From Butyrivibrio sp. (lineage in GTDB: Bacteria > Bacillota_A > Clostridia > Lachnospirales > Lachnospiraceae), in contig JAILOW010000109.1 of assembly GCA_024690635.1 (NCBI GenBank), forward strand, positions 1 through 15,425: a DNA stretch of 15,425 nucleotides, in the 5' to 3' direction. Every line of letters starts with the position of its first letter. Positions within the stretch are counted from its first letter, which is position 1. The position numbers and the translations under genes were made by a program. This document shows positions 3,948-10,187 of this stretch, piece after piece. The notes beneath the pieces were generated by a model. It saw nothing but the letters and a program-made list of their open reading frames with translations. It did no database searches and was not told where the DNA came from.

Positions 3948-3995
3948 TTAACTTAACGGACTGCTAATATAGTTAAAGCGAATATATAAGCATAA

Positions 3996-4032
3996 GGAAT
4001 CGGGTAGGTGTAAAGCCTACTCGATTTCTTTT
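3996..4032 (+). terminator. Terminator after the chemoreceptor gene
   Basis: A 13-bp stem (3996-4008 with 4016-4028, allowing one G-U pair) around the loop TGTAAAG is followed by TTTCTTTT. It lies about 50 bases after the chemoreceptor stop and separates that gene from the next transcript. Confidence 0.8.
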
Positions 4033-4087
4033 ACTGTAAGAGTTATATTAGAAAAAGTGGTGAATCATTAAATAAAAAAACATATAA

Positions 4088-4105
4088 GGTAACCCTGGGG
4101 GTACT
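4088..4105. promoter_or_regulatory. 18-bp dyad operator candidate, copy 1
   Basis: GGTAACC-CTGG-GGGTACT is an imperfect dyad of two 7-base half-sites spaced by 4 bases. The right half is identical to, and the left half matches at 5 of 7 bases, the near-perfect dyad at 9157-9174. It ends immediately before the -35-like hexamer of the promoter driving 4153-9132, the position used by activators that contact RNA polymerase. The binder is unknown; the LuxR-type regulator encoded at 4858 is a candidate. Confidence 0.6.
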
Positions 4106-4133
4106 TTGTCTGTGAATATATTGCAGATAAAAT
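4106..4133 (+). promoter_or_regulatory. Promoter of the thioredoxin-like/LuxR/C11 operon
   Basis: TTGTCT (4106-4111, 4 of 6 to TTGACA) and TAAAAT (4128-4133, 5 of 6 to TATAAT) are separated by 16 bases. The pair directly follows the dyad and sits 20 bases before the first start codon. The transcript leader would be very short, so SD GGAGGA (4141-4146) lies near the RNA 5' end. Confidence 0.55.
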
Positions 4134-4152
4134 TACAATCGGAGGAAAAAGT

Positions 4153-4845
4153 ATGTTTAAAAAGATAAAAAATATGGTTGTAACAGCGTTGGCGGTACTT
4201 GGAGTTCTTTTTATTATCCTGATTCTTCTTCCCGATTACGATGAGGAGGAAGCTGTAGCTGCCGAAGATACTGTGGAAGCAGTGCAGGAGAAACCGGTTG
4301 AGGAAAAAGAAGAGGCTAAAGAAGAGGAAAAAGTAGAAAAAGAAGAAGCCGAAGCTGCGGATGAAAGCGAAAACGAGGAGAACGCAGTAACAGTTAATAT
4401 CCCTCAGTCAGAGCTTTCAGAGGATGCACTGACCTTCAATACAGTATCTCTTGAGGGAGATAAAGCTTCCCAAGATATTTTTTCCGGCTACGACATCACC
4501 ATCGTTCATGTGTGGGGAACATACTGTGACCCCTGTATAGAGGAAATGGGAGATTATGCATCACTTTACAAAGAACTTCCTGAAAACGTAAATCTGGTGG
4601 GAGTAGTATGCGATGTCTATGACGGCATAGACAGGAATGTTTCAGATGCAGAAGGTATATTAAAGGACGCAGACGCAGAGTTTTTGAACTTAAGGACAAG
4701 CGATGATCTCTACGGCTTAACTTCTTCTCTTCAGTCTGTCCCTGCGACGTTTTTTGTGGACGGTAAGGGACATATGATAGGAAGCATGCTCTACTCAGAA
4801 GGAGCAGACAAGATCAAAGACAGGCTTTCAAAATATCTTAAATAA
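4153..4845 (+). CDS. Membrane-anchored thioredoxin-like (TlpA/redoxin type) protein
   Basis: This is a 230-residue protein. Residues 1-27 form a basic N-terminus and one membrane span with no lipobox. Then comes a very acidic Glu/Ala/Lys-rich linker (about 28-82), predicted to hold the catalytic domain away from the membrane. The C-terminal half is a redoxin fold: strand VHVWGTY, active site C125-D-P-C128, then VNLVGVVCDVYDG, and the conserved cis-Pro region SVPATFFVDG with P197. Such proteins exchange thiols and disulfides on exported partners. It heads the operon with SD GGAGGA. The downstream C11 peptidase carries a related anchor (residues 15-32 here align without gaps to 16-33 there, 11 of 18 identical) and many cysteines, so it is a plausible client. 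CDPC is less common than the CxxC loops of well-studied TlpA proteins; reductant versus oxidant cannot be decided. Confidence 0.85.
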   Translation: MFKKIKNMVVTALAVLGVLFIILILLPDYDEEEAVAAEDTVEAVQEKPVEEKEEAKEEEKVEKEEAEAADESENEENAVTVNIPQSELSEDALTFNTVSLEGDKASQDIFSGYDITIVHVWGTYCDPCIEEMGDYASLYKELPENVNLVGVVCDVYDGIDRNVSDAEGILKDADAEFLNLRTSDDLYGLTSSLQSVPATFFVDGKGHMIGSMLYSEGADKIKDRLSKYLK

Positions 4846-4857
4846 CGGGGCGGAAAT

Positions 4858-7230
4858 ATGGACTACATCAAAGTTCCGAAGGTTTATGAAAAACTAAAAA
4901 AAGCGGAAGAATTCTTTTCGCCCGTTATAATGACCGCAGGTTCGGGCTGGGGAAAAACAGCGGCTGCGGAATATTACTACAGGAGAAAAAGCCCGAAGAT
5001 CCTTTGTTGCAGGGACGGAAATCTTACACAGATGCCGTCTTCCGATTCTTTTCGCACAAGTGTTGTGATAATAGAAGATCTGCAGTGGATTTTTGAAAAT
5101 GAATCCATTCGTTATCTGAAAGAGATCCTCAGAAAACCGGGGATCCAGGTTGTGATGCTCACAAGAGGTGAGGTTCCTCGCTTCCTTGCGGCAGAAGAGA
5201 TGGATCTTGATTTTGTGAGGATCCAGGAAAGAGACTTTGCTTTCGGCATAAAAGAGGTTGAGGAATTTTTTGAAAAGAAGAAAGTTCCCATAACTTCTGA
5301 GGATGCAGAGCTTGTGACCCGGGCTTCTCAGGGGTATGTCAGGGCTGTTTACAGCTTTGCTGCCCGTATGGATGGCGGTAAAAGATTCTCAAAAGAAATA
5401 GGATCCGCTGTATGGCAGGATATGTTTCATTTGTGGGACGGACAGCTCTATGATCAGTGGTCTGATGAATTTGTCAGGTTTGCGCTGGCGGTATGCCGCT
5501 ACGAGGATTTTACCGCAGAGATGGCAGAGCAGCTGACAGGGAACAAAAAGATCTCAAGTGTGATCGAGTATTGTCGCAGCACCACCAGTCAGCTTAATGT
5601 CCTGGAAAACGGCCGGTATGCGCTGAGAGAAGAAACGAGAAAGTTCTTTTGCTGGAAACAGGAGCTTACCTGGTCAGAAACAGATATCTGTGAGAACTAC
5701 CGCAAGGCTGCGGGCTATTATGAGATGCATGATGATATCTCAAATGCTCTTAGATATTACAAAAAAGCCGGGGCTACGAATCTGGTAAAAGAGCTTCTTA
5801 TACGAAATGCCTATACCCATCCCGGTACAGGTCACTATGTGGAGACCAGGGACTATTATTGCGAACTGTCGGAAGAGGAGCTAAAGGACTCTCCCGTATT
5901 GATGGCGGGAATGAGCATGCTCTACAGCCTGATACTTCTTCCTGAAAAATCCGAGAAGTGGTACGGAGAGCTCCGGGACTACTACCTGGATAAAAAGAAC
6001 GGAAGGGACTTAAGGCGCGAAGCAGGGGCAAGGCTTGCATATCTTGATATAGGACTTCCCCACAGAGGTGCCAAAGGAATACTTGGCATAATGAAGAATG
6101 TCTTTTCCATGCTGCAGAGCGGGGAGATCGTGCTGCCTGAGTTTGCGGCAACCGGAAATATGCCATCTATCATGAATGGCGGACTGGATTTTAGCCAGTG
6201 GTCTAAAAATGATGTTCAGATAGCAAGGTTTATGGGTAAACCTGTGTCCACCATATTGGGAAGCTTTGGAAAGGGGCTTGTTACCCTTTGCCTTGCAGAG
6301 AGCGGATTTGAAAAGGGAACTATGCCTGCCTATGAGGTGCTGACAAGGTGCTGCGACGGCTTTGATGCCGCATCCCACGGAGGAACCATTGAGATGTGCT
6401 TCGTTTCTGTGGGAATACAGATAAGACAGCACCTGGTGGAAGGTCAGCTCCCTTCTGCAAAGAGGATACTGGATTCCTTCAGGGAAAAGGCAACACTTGA
6501 AGAGGCAACTCAGCTGACGCCCAATATCGAAGCGCTTACAACGCTTCTTTCGCTGTTTTCGGGGACAGGAGAGCAGGTTGATAACTATCTAAAGACCGTG
6601 TCGGATGCCAGAGTTTTCTTTTGCATAACTGACAGATACAGACAGATGGTTAAACTACGCTGCCTGATTGCCAAAGGGCTTTTGGATGAAGCCTTTGATC
6701 TGTCGTCGTTTTTGACAGGGTATTTCAGCTCTTACAACAGGCCGTTTTTGTGGATAGAAAACGAAGTCCTTAAGGCGATAATCTTGTACCGCCTGGGAGA
6801 TGAGCACTGGAAGGAGCATTTGCGTGATGCCATGAAGCGCTCATCCGAATATCATTTCGTCAGGATCTTTTCACTGGAGGGGGCTGTGCTTTTGCCTCTT
6901 TTAAAGCAGATGAAGGAAGAGGACGGTTTTGGCGATCTGAAGGAAGAATTTGTTTCCTGCATTTATAAAGAGTGCATCAAGGTGGCTTCAAGCTATACGG
7001 ACTACATGAAGTATATTCCAAAAGAGAACATTTCTTTTACCAACAGGGAATCCCAGGTGTTGTCCTTATTGTGCGCGGGAATGCCAATGGAAGAGATCTG
7101 CGAAACTCTTGGGATCACTTATGATGGCCTTAAGAAACACAACAGGAATATATATAAAAAGCTCGGTGTAAAGGGTCGTGCGGAAGCAGAGCGAAAGGCG
7201 GCTCAGCTTGGCATTGTACACCGGGGATGA
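4858..7230 (+). CDS. Large ATP-binding LuxR-family regulator (MalT/LAL-like)
   Basis: This 790-residue predicted signal-transduction ATPase has a C-terminal DNA-binding domain. The P-loop G28-S-G-W-G-K-T34 and a Walker B-like VVIIED (69-74) are followed by a LTRGE-type strand end. Helical-repeat sequence of the kind found in MalT-type regulators fills the middle. A LuxR/GerE helix-turn-helix occupies residues 727-790 (FTNRESQVLSLLCAGMPMEE, then a recognition helix with Y-D-G-L-K-K-H and NIYKKLGVKGRAEA). Only about 35 residues separate Walker A from Walker B, much less than in MalT. SD-like GGGGCGGA precedes ATG 4858, 12 bases after the thioredoxin-like gene, in one operon. In this family an inducer and ATP trigger self-assembly and activation of nearby promoters; the dyads at 4088 and 9157 are candidate targets (inference). 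Confidence 0.9.
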   Translation: MDYIKVPKVYEKLKKAEEFFSPVIMTAGSGWGKTAAAEYYYRRKSPKILCCRDGNLTQMPSSDSFRTSVVIIEDLQWIFENESIRYLKEILRKPGIQVVMLTRGEVPRFLAAEEMDLDFVRIQERDFAFGIKEVEEFFEKKKVPITSEDAELVTRASQGYVRAVYSFAARMDGGKRFSKEIGSAVWQDMFHLWDGQLYDQWSDEFVRFALAVCRYEDFTAEMAEQLTGNKKISSVIEYCRSTTSQLNVLENGRYALREETRKFFCWKQELTWSETDICENYRKAAGYYEMHDDISNALRYYKKAGATNLVKELLIRNAYTHPGTGHYVETRDYYCELSEEELKDSPVLMAGMSMLYSLILLPEKSEKWYGELRDYYLDKKNGRDLRREAGARLAYLDIGLPHRGAKGILGIMKNVFSMLQSGEIVLPEFAATGNMPSIMNGGLDFSQWSKNDVQIARFMGKPVSTILGSFGKGLVTLCLAESGFEKGTMPAYEVLTRCCDGFDAASHGGTIEMCFVSVGIQIRQHLVEGQLPSAKRILDSFREKATLEEATQLTPNIEALTTLLSLFSGTGEQVDNYLKTVSDARVFFCITDRYRQMVKLRCLIAKGLLDEAFDLSSFLTGYFSSYNRPFLWIENEVLKAIILYRLGDEHWKEHLRDAMKRSSEYHFVRIFSLEGAVLLPLLKQMKEEDGFGDLKEEFVSCIYKECIKVASSYTDYMKYIPKENISFTNRESQVLSLLCAGMPMEEICETLGITYDGLKKHNRNIYKKLGVKGRAEAERKAAQLGIVHRG

Positions 7231-7248
7231 GGGGAAAGGAGCAGTATC

Positions 7249-7515
7249 ATGAAGTGGAAAAAAGGCGTGGAAATAACCCGTGGAAGAGGGACATGGGTAA
7301 GCCTTGGTGATCTGAAAAAGAAGATCAAAAAGGAAGATGAAGAGATACTAAAGCTCATGGAGGCCGGAACTACGGATGACGATGAGCTCATAAAAAAGCT
7401 TTCTAAGCTCTCCGGAAATGACGAGATCGCTACTGGATTCAGACTTGCTCAGTTTGTTGAGGATTACGGAGATTTCATTGCTGAAGGGAAAAAGCCGGAT
7501 GTATTCGGTATATAA
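7249..7515 (+). CDS. Small charged protein of unknown function
   Basis: I do not recognise this 88-residue protein. It has no signal peptide, membrane span or cysteine. A basic start (MKWKKGVEITRGRGTW) is followed by a Lys/Glu-rich helical stretch (DLKKKIKKEDEEILKLMEAG, about 21-40), a second predicted helix, and the tail FVEDYGDFIAEGKKPDVFGI. AAAGGAG (7235-7241) lies well placed before the ATG. It begins 18 bases after the regulator stop and ends 15 bases before the peptidase start, so it is almost surely co-transcribed and cytoplasmic. A role as a partner of the regulator or as an accessory factor is possible, but nothing in the sequence proves it. Confidence 0.75.
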   Translation: MKWKKGVEITRGRGTWVSLGDLKKKIKKEDEEILKLMEAGTTDDDELIKKLSKLSGNDEIATGFRLAQFVEDYGDFIAEGKKPDVFGI

Positions 7516-7530
7516 AGGCTGGACTAAAAG

Positions 7531-9132
7531 ATGAAGAGTGGAAAACTAAAGAAATTTATAATCGGGGTACTTGTGGTACTGGGGCTTTTGTTTCTTTTGA
7601 TCATGCTACTTCCTGAGGATGACGAAGAAACAGAAACAGCGTCAAAGCCTGAACAAACGGAGGCGCCAGCGGCCACAAGCAGCGGTGTTGCGAAGGTGTC
7701 TGTGGGCACAAACGCAAAATCCGCTACCATTATGGTGTATATGAACGGTTCGGACCTTGAGTCGGAAGGGGGCGAAGCTTCAAGTGATATAGCCGAGATG
7801 ATCGACTCCGGAATAGGAGATAATGTCAACGTTATCATTCAGACCATGGGTACCAGGGAGTGGCAAAGCTATGGAATTGCATCCGACAGATCACAGACTT
7901 ACAAACTGACAAACGGAAAACCCGAACTTATCAGGGATGATCTGGGACAGCTTGACTGTACCTCCAAGGATACTCTTTCAGAGTTTATCGGATTTTGTAA
8001 AAGCAACTATCCTGCAGACAGATATATGTTCCTTTTCTGGGATCATGGCGGTGGCCCTGTTTACGGCTTTGGCTACGACGAATGGCAGGATGAAAACTCA
8101 TCTCTTACTATTGGTGAGATGTCAAAAGCTTTTTCCGAAAACAAAGATGTTCACTTCGACATCATCGGAATGGACTGCTGTATCATGGCCAGCATGGAAA
8201 CCTGCTATGCCTTTGCACCATACTGCAAATACGCTCTTTTGTCCGAGGATTTCGAATCGGGACTTGGCTGGAGCTACAAGGGGTGGATGAAGGCCTTTGA
8301 AGAAAATCCCGGAATATCTACACCTCTTCTTGGAAAGTATATTGTGGATGACATCATTTCGGAAAATGAAGAGAATATTGCGGGTGATTCTGCCTGTATA
8401 GCTCTTTTTAACGTATCCACCGCAAAGAATCTCTTTACTGCATGGAAGGCCTATGCCTATAAGAACGAGGCAGCTCTTTTGAACAAGAATTACAGCAGAA
8501 GCCACAGAGCCAAGGGCAGGGGTTTTTGGGATCTGTGGGGAACGGATGAAAGCGATGTGACACTTTCCGATTATTACATCAGTGATATTCTGGCTCTTAT
8601 GGAGAGTGTAGATGACCAGAGCGATGAGGCCAGGAGCCTTATGTCTGCGCTGAAGGCTGCTGTTGCCTATTATGGACATACCTCTGATAAAAACGAGCTT
8701 ACAGGTCTTGCTGTGTCGCTTCCTTATGGTGATTCAGATTTTTACGATCAGTTAAAGGACGTATATAAAGAGATAGAGCTGGATGACGAGTACATTGACT
8801 GGCTTGGCTCTTTTGTATCGGAATCAGGTTATGAGGATTATTTCGACTTTGGAGGATTTGAGGACAGCTGGGGAGGCTGGGGAACCTATGAGCAGGACTA
8901 CGGCTGCAACATCAGTAACGGCGGATCCTGTGAGTACGGCTATGCATATGATTATGACGATGCCGAGGATGACTGGATCTACGACTACGAAGAAAAGATG
9001 TGGTACCTGTATGATGACGATGTTCTCTATCTGTACGATGATGAGACAGATACCACCTTCTACTACGATGAAGACGAGGACAAGGTCTATTACTACGACG
9101 AAGAAAAGGATGACTGGTACGAGGCGGAGTAA
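7531..9132 (+). CDS. Membrane-anchored C11 (clostripain-family) cysteine peptidase with Tyr/Asp-rich tail
   Basis: This 533-residue peptidase has an N-terminal anchor (span about residues 9-28, ending LLPEDDEE), a short Ser/Ala/Thr linker, then the C11 domain. The domain starts at ATIMVYMNGSDLESEGG; the catalytic His is H172 in FWDHGGG and the catalytic Cys is most likely C217 in MDCCIMASME (C216 is adjacent). C11 enzymes cleave after Arg or Lys and often mature by self-cleavage. The order His then Cys and their spacing fit the caspase-like clan. The domain is predicted to lie outside the cell. After it come a Gly/Trp-rich stretch, a cysteine pair (C459, C467) and a repetitive acidic-aromatic tail (480-533). 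The SD is weak (AAAGG about 11 bases upstream), which suggests coupling to the upstream gene. No clear terminator follows. The substrate is unknown. Confidence 0.92.
   Translation: MKSGKLKKFIIGVLVVLGLLFLLIMLLPEDDEETETASKPEQTEAPAATSSGVAKVSVGTNAKSATIMVYMNGSDLESEGGEASSDIAEMIDSGIGDNVNVIIQTMGTREWQSYGIASDRSQTYKLTNGKPELIRDDLGQLDCTSKDTLSEFIGFCKSNYPADRYMFLFWDHGGGPVYGFGYDEWQDENSSLTIGEMSKAFSENKDVHFDIIGMDCCIMASMETCYAFAPYCKYALLSEDFESGLGWSYKGWMKAFEENPGISTPLLGKYIVDDIISENEENIAGDSACIALFNVSTAKNLFTAWKAYAYKNEAALLNKNYSRSHRAKGRGFWDLWGTDESDVTLSDYYISDILALMESVDDQSDEARSLMSALKAAVAYYGHTSDKNELTGLAVSLPYGDSDFYDQLKDVYKEIELDDEYIDWLGSFVSESGYEDYFDFGGFEDSWGGWGTYEQDYGCNISNGGSCEYGYAYDYDDAEDDWIYDYEEKMWYLYDDDVLYLYDDETDTTFYYDEDEDKVYYYDEEKDDWYEAE
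8968..9129 (+). repeat. Tyr/Asp decapeptide-like repeats at the C11 peptidase C-terminus
   Basis: Residues 480-533 of the peptidase fall into five units of 9-10 residues: WIYDYEEKM, WYLYDDDVL, YLYDDETDTT, FYYDEDEDKV and YYYDEEKDDW. Each starts with two or three aromatic/aliphatic residues ending in Tyr, followed by Asp/Glu. The aromatic-then-acidic alternation could form a beta-ladder, bind calcium, or attach to wall or glycan. It is not a repeat I can name. The DNA copies have diverged, so it is an old or selected repeat and not a fresh slippage product. Confidence 0.7.
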
Positions 9133-9156
9133 GTAACAGCATGAAAAAACAGGCAA

Positions 9157-9174
9157 AGTACCCATAGGGGTACT
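9157..9174. promoter_or_regulatory. 18-bp dyad operator candidate, copy 2 (near-perfect)
   Basis: AGTACCC-ATAG-GGGTACT has two perfectly matched 7-base inverted half-sites with a 4-base centre. It is the better copy of the element at 4088-4105. From the dyad end to the -10-like hexamer is the same distance in both (9174 to 9197 and 4105 to 4128). As RNA it could form a 7-bp hairpin, so a weak terminator role for the C11 operon is an alternative, but no T run follows directly. Confidence 0.65.
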
Positions 9175-9202
9175 ATACTTTCTTTCCACCAAAACATAGA
9201 AT
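9175..9202 (+). promoter_or_regulatory. Candidate activator-dependent promoter of the LURP-one-like gene
   Basis: TAGAAT (9197-9202, 5 of 6 to TATAAT) lies 16 bases after ATACTT (9175-9180), a poor -35. The layout exactly copies that at 4106-4133. A weak -35 abutting a dyad fits dependence on an activator. The start codon is about 77 bases downstream of the -10. Confidence 0.5.
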
Positions 9203-9278
9203 CTTTTTTGACGATAAATCATAAACAGTTTGTGGATTTGCATAATTGCAAGCAAATCTGATGGAGGAGAAAAAAGAA

Positions 9279-10187
9279 ATGGGATTTTTTGACATGTCAA
9301 CAGGCGGCAATATGGGATTTGCCAGCGTAAAGAATACCAGGAATTTCACCGATATGGATCTTTACAACATGCTCTCAGACATTAACGTTACCTTTGGTAA
9401 GCCCATCATGGGTGATATAAACGGAACTCCCGCAGTAATGTATAAAAACGTTACACCTAGCTTTGACGTTTTCTGCAGAGTTCACAAGAGCAACGTTATC
9501 ATGGGAAAGATCGGCGCTGACGGAGTCAGCAGTGCTACAACCGCACTTAACATGGGAGTGGATATGTTCCTCGGACACAAGGACGAGGGTGCTTCCAAGG
9601 CTGATCGTGCAGTTGACGAGTTACTGGGGGTTATCAAGAAGCTTGAGAATGGCGAAGCGGTTTCAGAGTCTGAGGGGACTAGTGCTATCAACACATCGAC
9701 CGGCGAAGAGATAAGGATGTACATGCAGCAGAAGGCTATCTCCTTAAAGCCTAAGTTCGATATTTTTGATCAGAATAAAGTGACTTTGTATCACGTTGAG
9801 GGCGACCTTGCACGCCTTAACTATTCCATTCAGAAGAACGGCGTTGAGGTTCTTAAGCTTAAGAAAAAGCTCATAGCTCTTTTGCCTGAATATACTATTG
9901 AAAAGAACAAGGTCACAATTGCAAAGATCAAAAAGAAATTCAAGCTCACAAAGCCTGAACTTAACGGAACAGTATACGATAAGGAGCTTAAGATCGGCGG
10001 GGATATCCTTGGATTCGATTATAACTTAAGCCTTGGCGGAAAAGAGATCGCTCACGTTGATACAGATCGTACCGTATGGTCAGACTGCTATCGTATCACA
10101 ATTTTGGATGAGGGCTATCAGGACGTTATCGCAGCTCTTGCCATCATCTGTGACATGGCGCAGGACAAGGAAAACAGCAATAGCTAA
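9279..10187 (+). CDS. Two-domain protein with LURP-one/Tubby-like C-terminal domain
   Basis: This is a 302-residue protein. Residues 147-302 match the LURP-one-related (LOR, YxjI-like) pattern: MYMQQKAISLKPKFDIFDQN, a second strand set with LYHVEGDLARLNYSI, then KKKLIALLPEYTI, AKIKKKFKLTKPEL, a GGDILGFDYNLSLGGKEIAH repeat and the closing helix ALAIICDM. This fold is a 12-strand barrel around a central helix, shared with Tubby and scramblases; its bacterial role is poorly known and probably membrane- or scaffold-related. Residues 1-145 are a separate domain I cannot name (MGFFDMSTGGNMGF start, FTDMDLYNMLSDINVTFGKP, later Gly-rich SSATTALNMGVDMFLG). There is no signal peptide or membrane span, so the protein is cytoplasmic. 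ATG 9279 follows GGAGGAG by 9 bases; the in-frame TTG 9246 has no SD. It has its own promoter with the shared dyad and ends at a good terminator. Confidence 0.82.
   Translation: MGFFDMSTGGNMGFASVKNTRNFTDMDLYNMLSDINVTFGKPIMGDINGTPAVMYKNVTPSFDVFCRVHKSNVIMGKIGADGVSSATTALNMGVDMFLGHKDEGASKADRAVDELLGVIKKLENGEAVSESEGTSAINTSTGEEIRMYMQQKAISLKPKFDIFDQNKVTLYHVEGDLARLNYSIQKNGVEVLKLKKKLIALLPEYTIEKNKVTIAKIKKKFKLTKPELNGTVYDKELKIGGDILGFDYNLSLGGKEIAHVDTDRTVWSDCYRITILDEGYQDVIAALAIICDMAQDKENSNS

Follow-up and report, generated by a model that had tools for sequence, protein, structure and literature searches.

A conserved, putative operator–promoter module of a MalT-like STAND regulator in Butyrivibrio sp. and related species

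Two 18-bp dyads in a 15,425-nucleotide stretch of Butyrivibrio sp. DNA (contig JAILOW010000109.1 of assembly GCA_024690635.1; the whole stretch is hereafter called the window) belong to a real, conserved operator–promoter module that recurs in related species. The dyad is conserved, its distance from a downstream −10-like hexamer is fixed, its sites are linked to a luxR gene and few in each genome, and in three genomes both the dyad and the recognition helix of the regulator are altered. From these sequence comparisons, the MalT-like STAND regulator of 4858–7230 very probably uses the dyads as its operators; it would activate its own operon and one or few further genes. The features concerned are as follows.

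4088–4105, forward strand: dyad 1, GGTAACC-CTGG-GGGTACT, proposed operator of the trx–luxR operon
4128–4133, forward strand: −10-like hexamer TAAAAT, downstream of dyad 1
4153–4845, forward strand: membrane-anchored thioredoxin-like protein (AhpC-TSA; StoA/ResA-like, below NCBIfam cut-offs; N-terminal hydrophobic segment)
4858–7230, forward strand: LuxR-type STAND ATPase, 790 aa, proposed dyad binder (P-loop, TPR sensor, GerE)
7249–7515, forward strand: p88, an 88-aa partner with a PqqD/RRE-like predicted fold
7531–9132, forward strand: clostripain-family (C11) peptidase (N-terminal hydrophobic segment; acidic/Tyr-rich C-terminal tail)
9157–9174, forward strand: dyad 2, AGTACCC-ATAG-GGGTACT, proposed operator of the LOR gene
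9197–9202, forward strand: −10-like hexamer TAGAAT, downstream of dyad 2
9279–10187, forward strand: LOR/Tubby-like domain protein, second target (Pfam match below cut-off)

At both sites the first base of the hexamer lies 23 bases after the last base of the dyad (hexamer offset 22), which confirms the original prediction of two dyads with an identical 7-4-7 layout and hexamer distance (4088–4105 with 4128; 9157–9174 with 9197). The −35 matches, also predicted to be poor, are TTGTCT at site 1 (4/6, with a 16-base spacer) and TATACT at site 2 (3/6). Matches to AGTACCC-N4-GGGTACT with at most three mismatches number 3 in the window against 0.25 expected, and none of 200 shuffles reaches 3, in agreement with the view that chance similarity is unlikely. 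In a matrix built from relatives only, the two sites rank first and second in the window (scores 29.4 and 23.4; 21.5 and 11.7 for their own reverse strands), and the third match (7957–7974, three mismatches) lies inside the C11 gene, and its reverse strand is the best remaining place (14.9). An Rfam search of the window at gathering scores returned no matches, and in a plasmid collection 12 records matched weakly and in part, all with coverage below 80%.

Dyad 1 is followed by the genes for the thioredoxin-like protein, the LuxR-type ATPase, p88 and the C11 peptidase, and dyad 2 by the LOR gene. The LuxR-type ATPase is encoded in the first transcript, as had been proposed; its gene begins 12 bases after the thioredoxin-like gene. 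The protein has an N-terminal NOD ATPase with a P-loop near residue 30, a MalT-like superhelical/TPR sensor and a C-terminal GerE helix-turn-helix (residues 726–779; 42.5 bits against a cut-off of 23.5), which is the architecture of STAND/LAL regulators. Its recognition helix comprises residues 755–769, and its nearest kin, among matches with a named source, are mostly Lachnospiraceae proteins. The thioredoxin-like protein (4162–4266) and the C11 peptidase (7543–7647) share a similar N-terminal hydrophobic segment plus acidic stretch (43% over 35 residues). The C11 tail (8870–9132) is long, Tyr/Asp/Glu-rich and repeat-like, and the L001 homologue has the same tail. The MCP gene is followed, at 3990–4040, by a strong hairpin (z −6.1) whose 3′ arm is T-rich; it is probably the MCP terminator, and a loose terminator scan did not list it.

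The layout was compared over 20 sites from 14 genomes including the window, chosen on the dyad and some of them after the layout had already been seen; L054, with three mismatches to the core, is among them, and the variant dyads of G113, G249, G027 and G659 are outside the set. The hexamer TANANT is at offset 22 in 17 of the 20 sites and at 21 in one, and the other two have TAATAT or TATTAT at 22; in 2000 shuffles of the set, at most 5 TANANT occurred at any offset. With −35 matches of 2–4 of 6 across the collected sites, and with a site that adjoins or overlaps the −35 region at a fixed distance from the −10 (17/20 at offset 22), this is the arrangement of a class II activator site.

In L001 (JAIKWO010000147.1, a Lachnospiraceae MAG with luxR at 64% identity), dyads stand before both the thioredoxin gene and the LOR gene with equally distant hexamers, and the whole genome, G001, has three places with the oriented pattern, the third on a different contig, ahead of a gene for a small lipoprotein. 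Equivalents of dyad 1 are upstream of trx in G001, G081 and G136, and equivalents of dyad 2 stand upstream of LOR in G001 and, in G081 and G136, upstream of the lipoprotein gene that precedes LOR. In locus L046 of G136, luxR is split at about 7900–9600 by an insert of ~1.7 kb whose reverse-strand ORF is transposase-like by reading, and both nearby dyads are intact.

The family set comprises 397 genomes, nine of which have luxR at ≥47% identity. The exact oriented pattern, RGTANCYNNRRGGGTACT, occurs in 23/397 genomes, namely 6/9 with close luxR and 17/388 others; the 6/9 share holds by construction, because the pattern was first drawn from the loci of those six genomes, so it is not an independent count and the corresponding Fisher values overstate. 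The 17 unlinked matches are no more than background, because a reversed-pattern control matches roughly a hundred family genomes (counted by eye), far above the 23 of the pattern. TANANT 19–25 bases downstream was found at 0/17 of these matches, all of which were dropped as sites; this "none of 388" is limited to the exact pattern, because the latter misses the sites of genomes with distant luxR. In the six close-luxR genomes, by contrast, every site, read towards its gene, has TANANT at 22 (once 21). The original prediction would have failed had the motif been found in genomes lacking the regulator; the exact dyad pattern does occur in genomes without a close luxR, there always without the hexamer layout, and in eight congeners without full-length luxR, 0/12 core matches have the hexamer. 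An ORF of ≥100 aa holds 13/17 unlinked matches and also 5/12 luxR-linked sites, by a mechanical test that makes this a weak comparison of coding and non-coding DNA. A stem-loop resembling GGTAACTGTGAGGGTACTGA...GTTACGAAA recurs in genomes without close luxR (L065, L066, L070, L076 and L077, centre about 1509); its loop is the part that matches the dyad pattern, and it is apparently a repeated element in its own right.

Extending the search to 392 genomes of the order added four close-luxR genomes (G600, G482, G659 and G636). These lay outside motif building, and in three of the four, all except G659, a site stands directly before luxR. In 13 luxR genomes, the dyad plus hexamer pattern with up to three mismatches gives 15 matches, 0–3 per genome, in 10/13 genomes: six with no mismatch, four with one, three with two and two, both in G249, with three. 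At the same tolerance of three mismatches, the number of matches to the reversed control is equal, 15; 13/15 of the real matches have 0–2 mismatches, and the control is available as this total. Of the two G249 matches, the one on C7, with a poor hexamer, is probably due to chance, and the other is a TACAC-type dyad.

Genomes with more distant luxR (36–41%; G310, G354, G209 and G037) carry the core TANCC-N4-GGGTA followed by GGTTAC, at an equal hexamer distance, directly before luxR. To the right of the dyad, L052–L056 of these distant relatives have a conserved GGTTACAA that is absent from the close group and is possibly an extra contact. Among the 30 of 33 listed core matches that were read, a hexamer is present at core offset 24 in five (G636, G354, G037, G600 C7 and G209 C55), all directly before luxR, and the other 25 were not counted as sites; the three unread matches include G310 C72, the luxR-promoter site of L052.

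In all, 21 loci with near full-length luxR (≥36%) were looked at, the partial 36% matches of G072 and G429 being outside the tally. A canonical dyad stands before luxR or a trx–luxR gene string in 11 loci, a variant dyad stands in the same position in three (G113, G249 and G027) and a variant dyad precedes an upstream lipoprotein-like fragment in one (G659). Four loci have a dyad just 3′ of luxR (G278, G104, G332 and G354 C17; the downstream gene of G104 is not clear), and G291 and G167 (luxR 40%) have no dyad at luxR. Sites linked to luxR appear at new places, most often at the regulator's own promoter. At locus L129 (G249 C123), the gene behind a TACAC-type dyad (4474, minus strand, with TATAAT at 22) is open-ended and codes for a protein of 1460 or more residues that looks secreted; no target of this type was seen at the other sites.

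The recognition helix varies partly with the dyad. A helix of the form [ST]Y[DEN]GLKKHN[RK]N accompanies canonical TACCC dyads in 10/10 close genomes, the window included, with Y755 and GLKKHN kept. In G249 the helix is TANGLKKHN (Y755 to A), with two TACAC dyads at hexamer offsets 21 and 22; in G659 it is SMNGLKKHN (Y755 to M), with one TACAC dyad at offset 22; and in G113 it is SYDTVKKYN, with two TCCAC-type dyads, one imperfect, and TATGAT at the usual hexamer position. These variant dyads were sought after the canonical site had been found missing, and at most loci a relaxed scan picks up dyads that occur by chance. Further TACAC matches, in G659 (C43) and G600 (C3), have no hexamer and were discarded as chance. 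Changes in the helix and in the dyad are not always coupled: G027 has the variant dyad CCACC...GGTGG with its hexamer in place, and G310 keeps the canonical core with a nearly identical helix. G291 (luxR 49%, canonical helix) has no site at luxR, nor genome-wide at three mismatches. In this small sample of three co-changing genomes (G113, G249 and G659) and two misfits (G291 and G027), the co-change points to the LuxR protein as the reader of the dyad.

In the proposed mechanism, arrival of a signal would cause the regulator to bind ATP and oligomerize, by analogy with MalT, after which the C-terminal LuxR-type helix-turn-helix domains would bind the 7-4-7 palindrome. Given the probable transcription start, the palindrome would extend from about −52 to −35, with its centre at about −43. 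Because the −35 box is missing or poor, the regulator is proposed to recruit RNA polymerase to the TANAAT hexamer. The activated genes would be its own operon, thioredoxin–luxR–p88–C11, and one or few others, in the window the LOR gene; most of these others encode membrane or exported proteins. The earlier reading of the dyads as sites of the encoded LuxR-type regulator in an activator position is supported, with binding and the direction of regulation inferred from sequence.

The signal may involve p88. This protein was found in 10 of 25 genomes searched, in one copy each, always beside luxR, and all ten genomes bear luxR. Its predicted model has a beta-beta-beta-alpha-alpha-alpha winged fold (pLDDT 82) of the PqqD/RRE kind. 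Identity to PqqD/RRE proteins is 9–14%, Foldseek with the model gave a best E of 0.017 and none under 0.001, and searches of Pfam and NCBIfam gave no PqqD family match up to E 1 and nothing meaningful. Eight of the window proteins were scanned, and no RiPP enzyme was recognised in this set. The RRE-like predicted fold suggests a route for a peptide or protein signal to the regulator. A closed peptide circuit is a doubtful elaboration. In it, the exported C11 peptidase would make or trim a peptide, p88 would capture it and pass it to the STAND regulator, and the regulator would in turn activate its own operon along with surface-protein genes via the −43 palindrome; if true, the RiPP leader-binding fold would have a signalling role beyond the synthesis of RiPPs.

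Negative autoregulation is common, and the LuxR regulator might bind the dyads as a repressor that blocks the −35 region until it is removed by a signal. The dyad abuts the −35 position, and a repressing LuxR-type ATP-binding regulator, SCO6993, is reported (PMC9628970). This reading is nevertheless unlikely: repression does not need a fixed hexamer spacing, which is base-exact in nearly all sites, the −35 matches just 2–4 of 6, and MalT is an activator (PMC10427625, in excerpt). That the dyads instead serve a repressor of the CsoR/CstR type, for metal or persulfide, is very unlikely, even though the CsoR type 2 consensus of Streptomyces, ATATACCCCTNAGGGGTATAT, resembles them (TACCCC...GGGGTA; PMC3902906, in excerpt), CsoR-family genes are present in 14/17 genomes examined and a thioredoxin gene is among the dyad targets. 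The CsoR sites described in that excerpt are TAC-N9-GTA, whereas the dyads here have eight bases between and a degenerate distal half; a CsoR-family gene was undetected in site-bearing G136 and G636 (draft genomes may miss genes); and 7/8 congeners without full-length luxR have CsoR, yet no core match with hexamer.

The DNA binder could also be p88, whose predicted fold is winged-helix-like and which was found only beside luxR, or an unlinked regulator coevolving with luxR; G027 and G291 depart from the helix–dyad rule. This reading is highly improbable, as the dyad co-changes with the luxR recognition helix in three genomes, and p88 is rejected because it was undetected in five site-bearing genomes (G104, G332, G278, G354 and G037). 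With CsoR undetected in two site-bearing genomes and p88 in five, luxR is the sole tested candidate common to all. RNA hairpins such as terminators are scarcely credible as a general explanation: dyad 2 does lie 25 bases after the C11 stop, passes the loose terminator scan and folds with z −2.3, but dyad 1 has no T run and the preceding MCP gene has a stronger hairpin at about 3994–4030 (z −6.1), the distal half is degenerate (TANCC), and a hairpin would need no hexamer at +22. An alternative sigma factor −35 element is not favoured, the palindrome being two-fold symmetric and upstream of the −35 position for a 17-base spacer.

The module of the MalT-like STAND regulator is a variant on known STAND/LuxR regulators, and no study of the regulator, the dyad or the gene set was found in the literature accessible in full text, to which most subscription papers do not belong. 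Large STAND/LuxR regulators are common and, to our knowledge, few have known operators. MalT, the best known of them, uses several asymmetric sites. A single palindrome with a nearly base-exact layout and natural operator changes that partly follow the helix is a first step towards a specificity code of a Lachnospiraceae regulator, and the short target list points to the regulator's function. The lux box of LuxR has a half-site sequence that differs from that of the dyad.

The NCBIfam MalT model scores 74.9 bits against a cut-off of 537, so the regulator is not MalT proper, and the first genes that follow the sites include no maltose gene. A single fixed-distance palindrome is used here, whereas MalT promoters have several MalT sites, four in malPp800 (PMC10427625, in excerpt). 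With CsoR type 2 operators (PMC3902906, in excerpt) the dyads share TAC ... GTA around C/G tracts, and they differ in the eight, not nine, bases between and in CsoR being undetected in two site-bearing genomes. The position is a known one for LuxR, whose lux box is centred at −42.5 and which acts in positive feedback (PMC7585371, in excerpt). Like the lux box, the dyad is an imperfect palindrome of similar size, for which the same position and positive feedback are proposed; unlike in quorum-sensing LuxR, a STAND ATPase and a TPR sensor replace the signal-binding domain.
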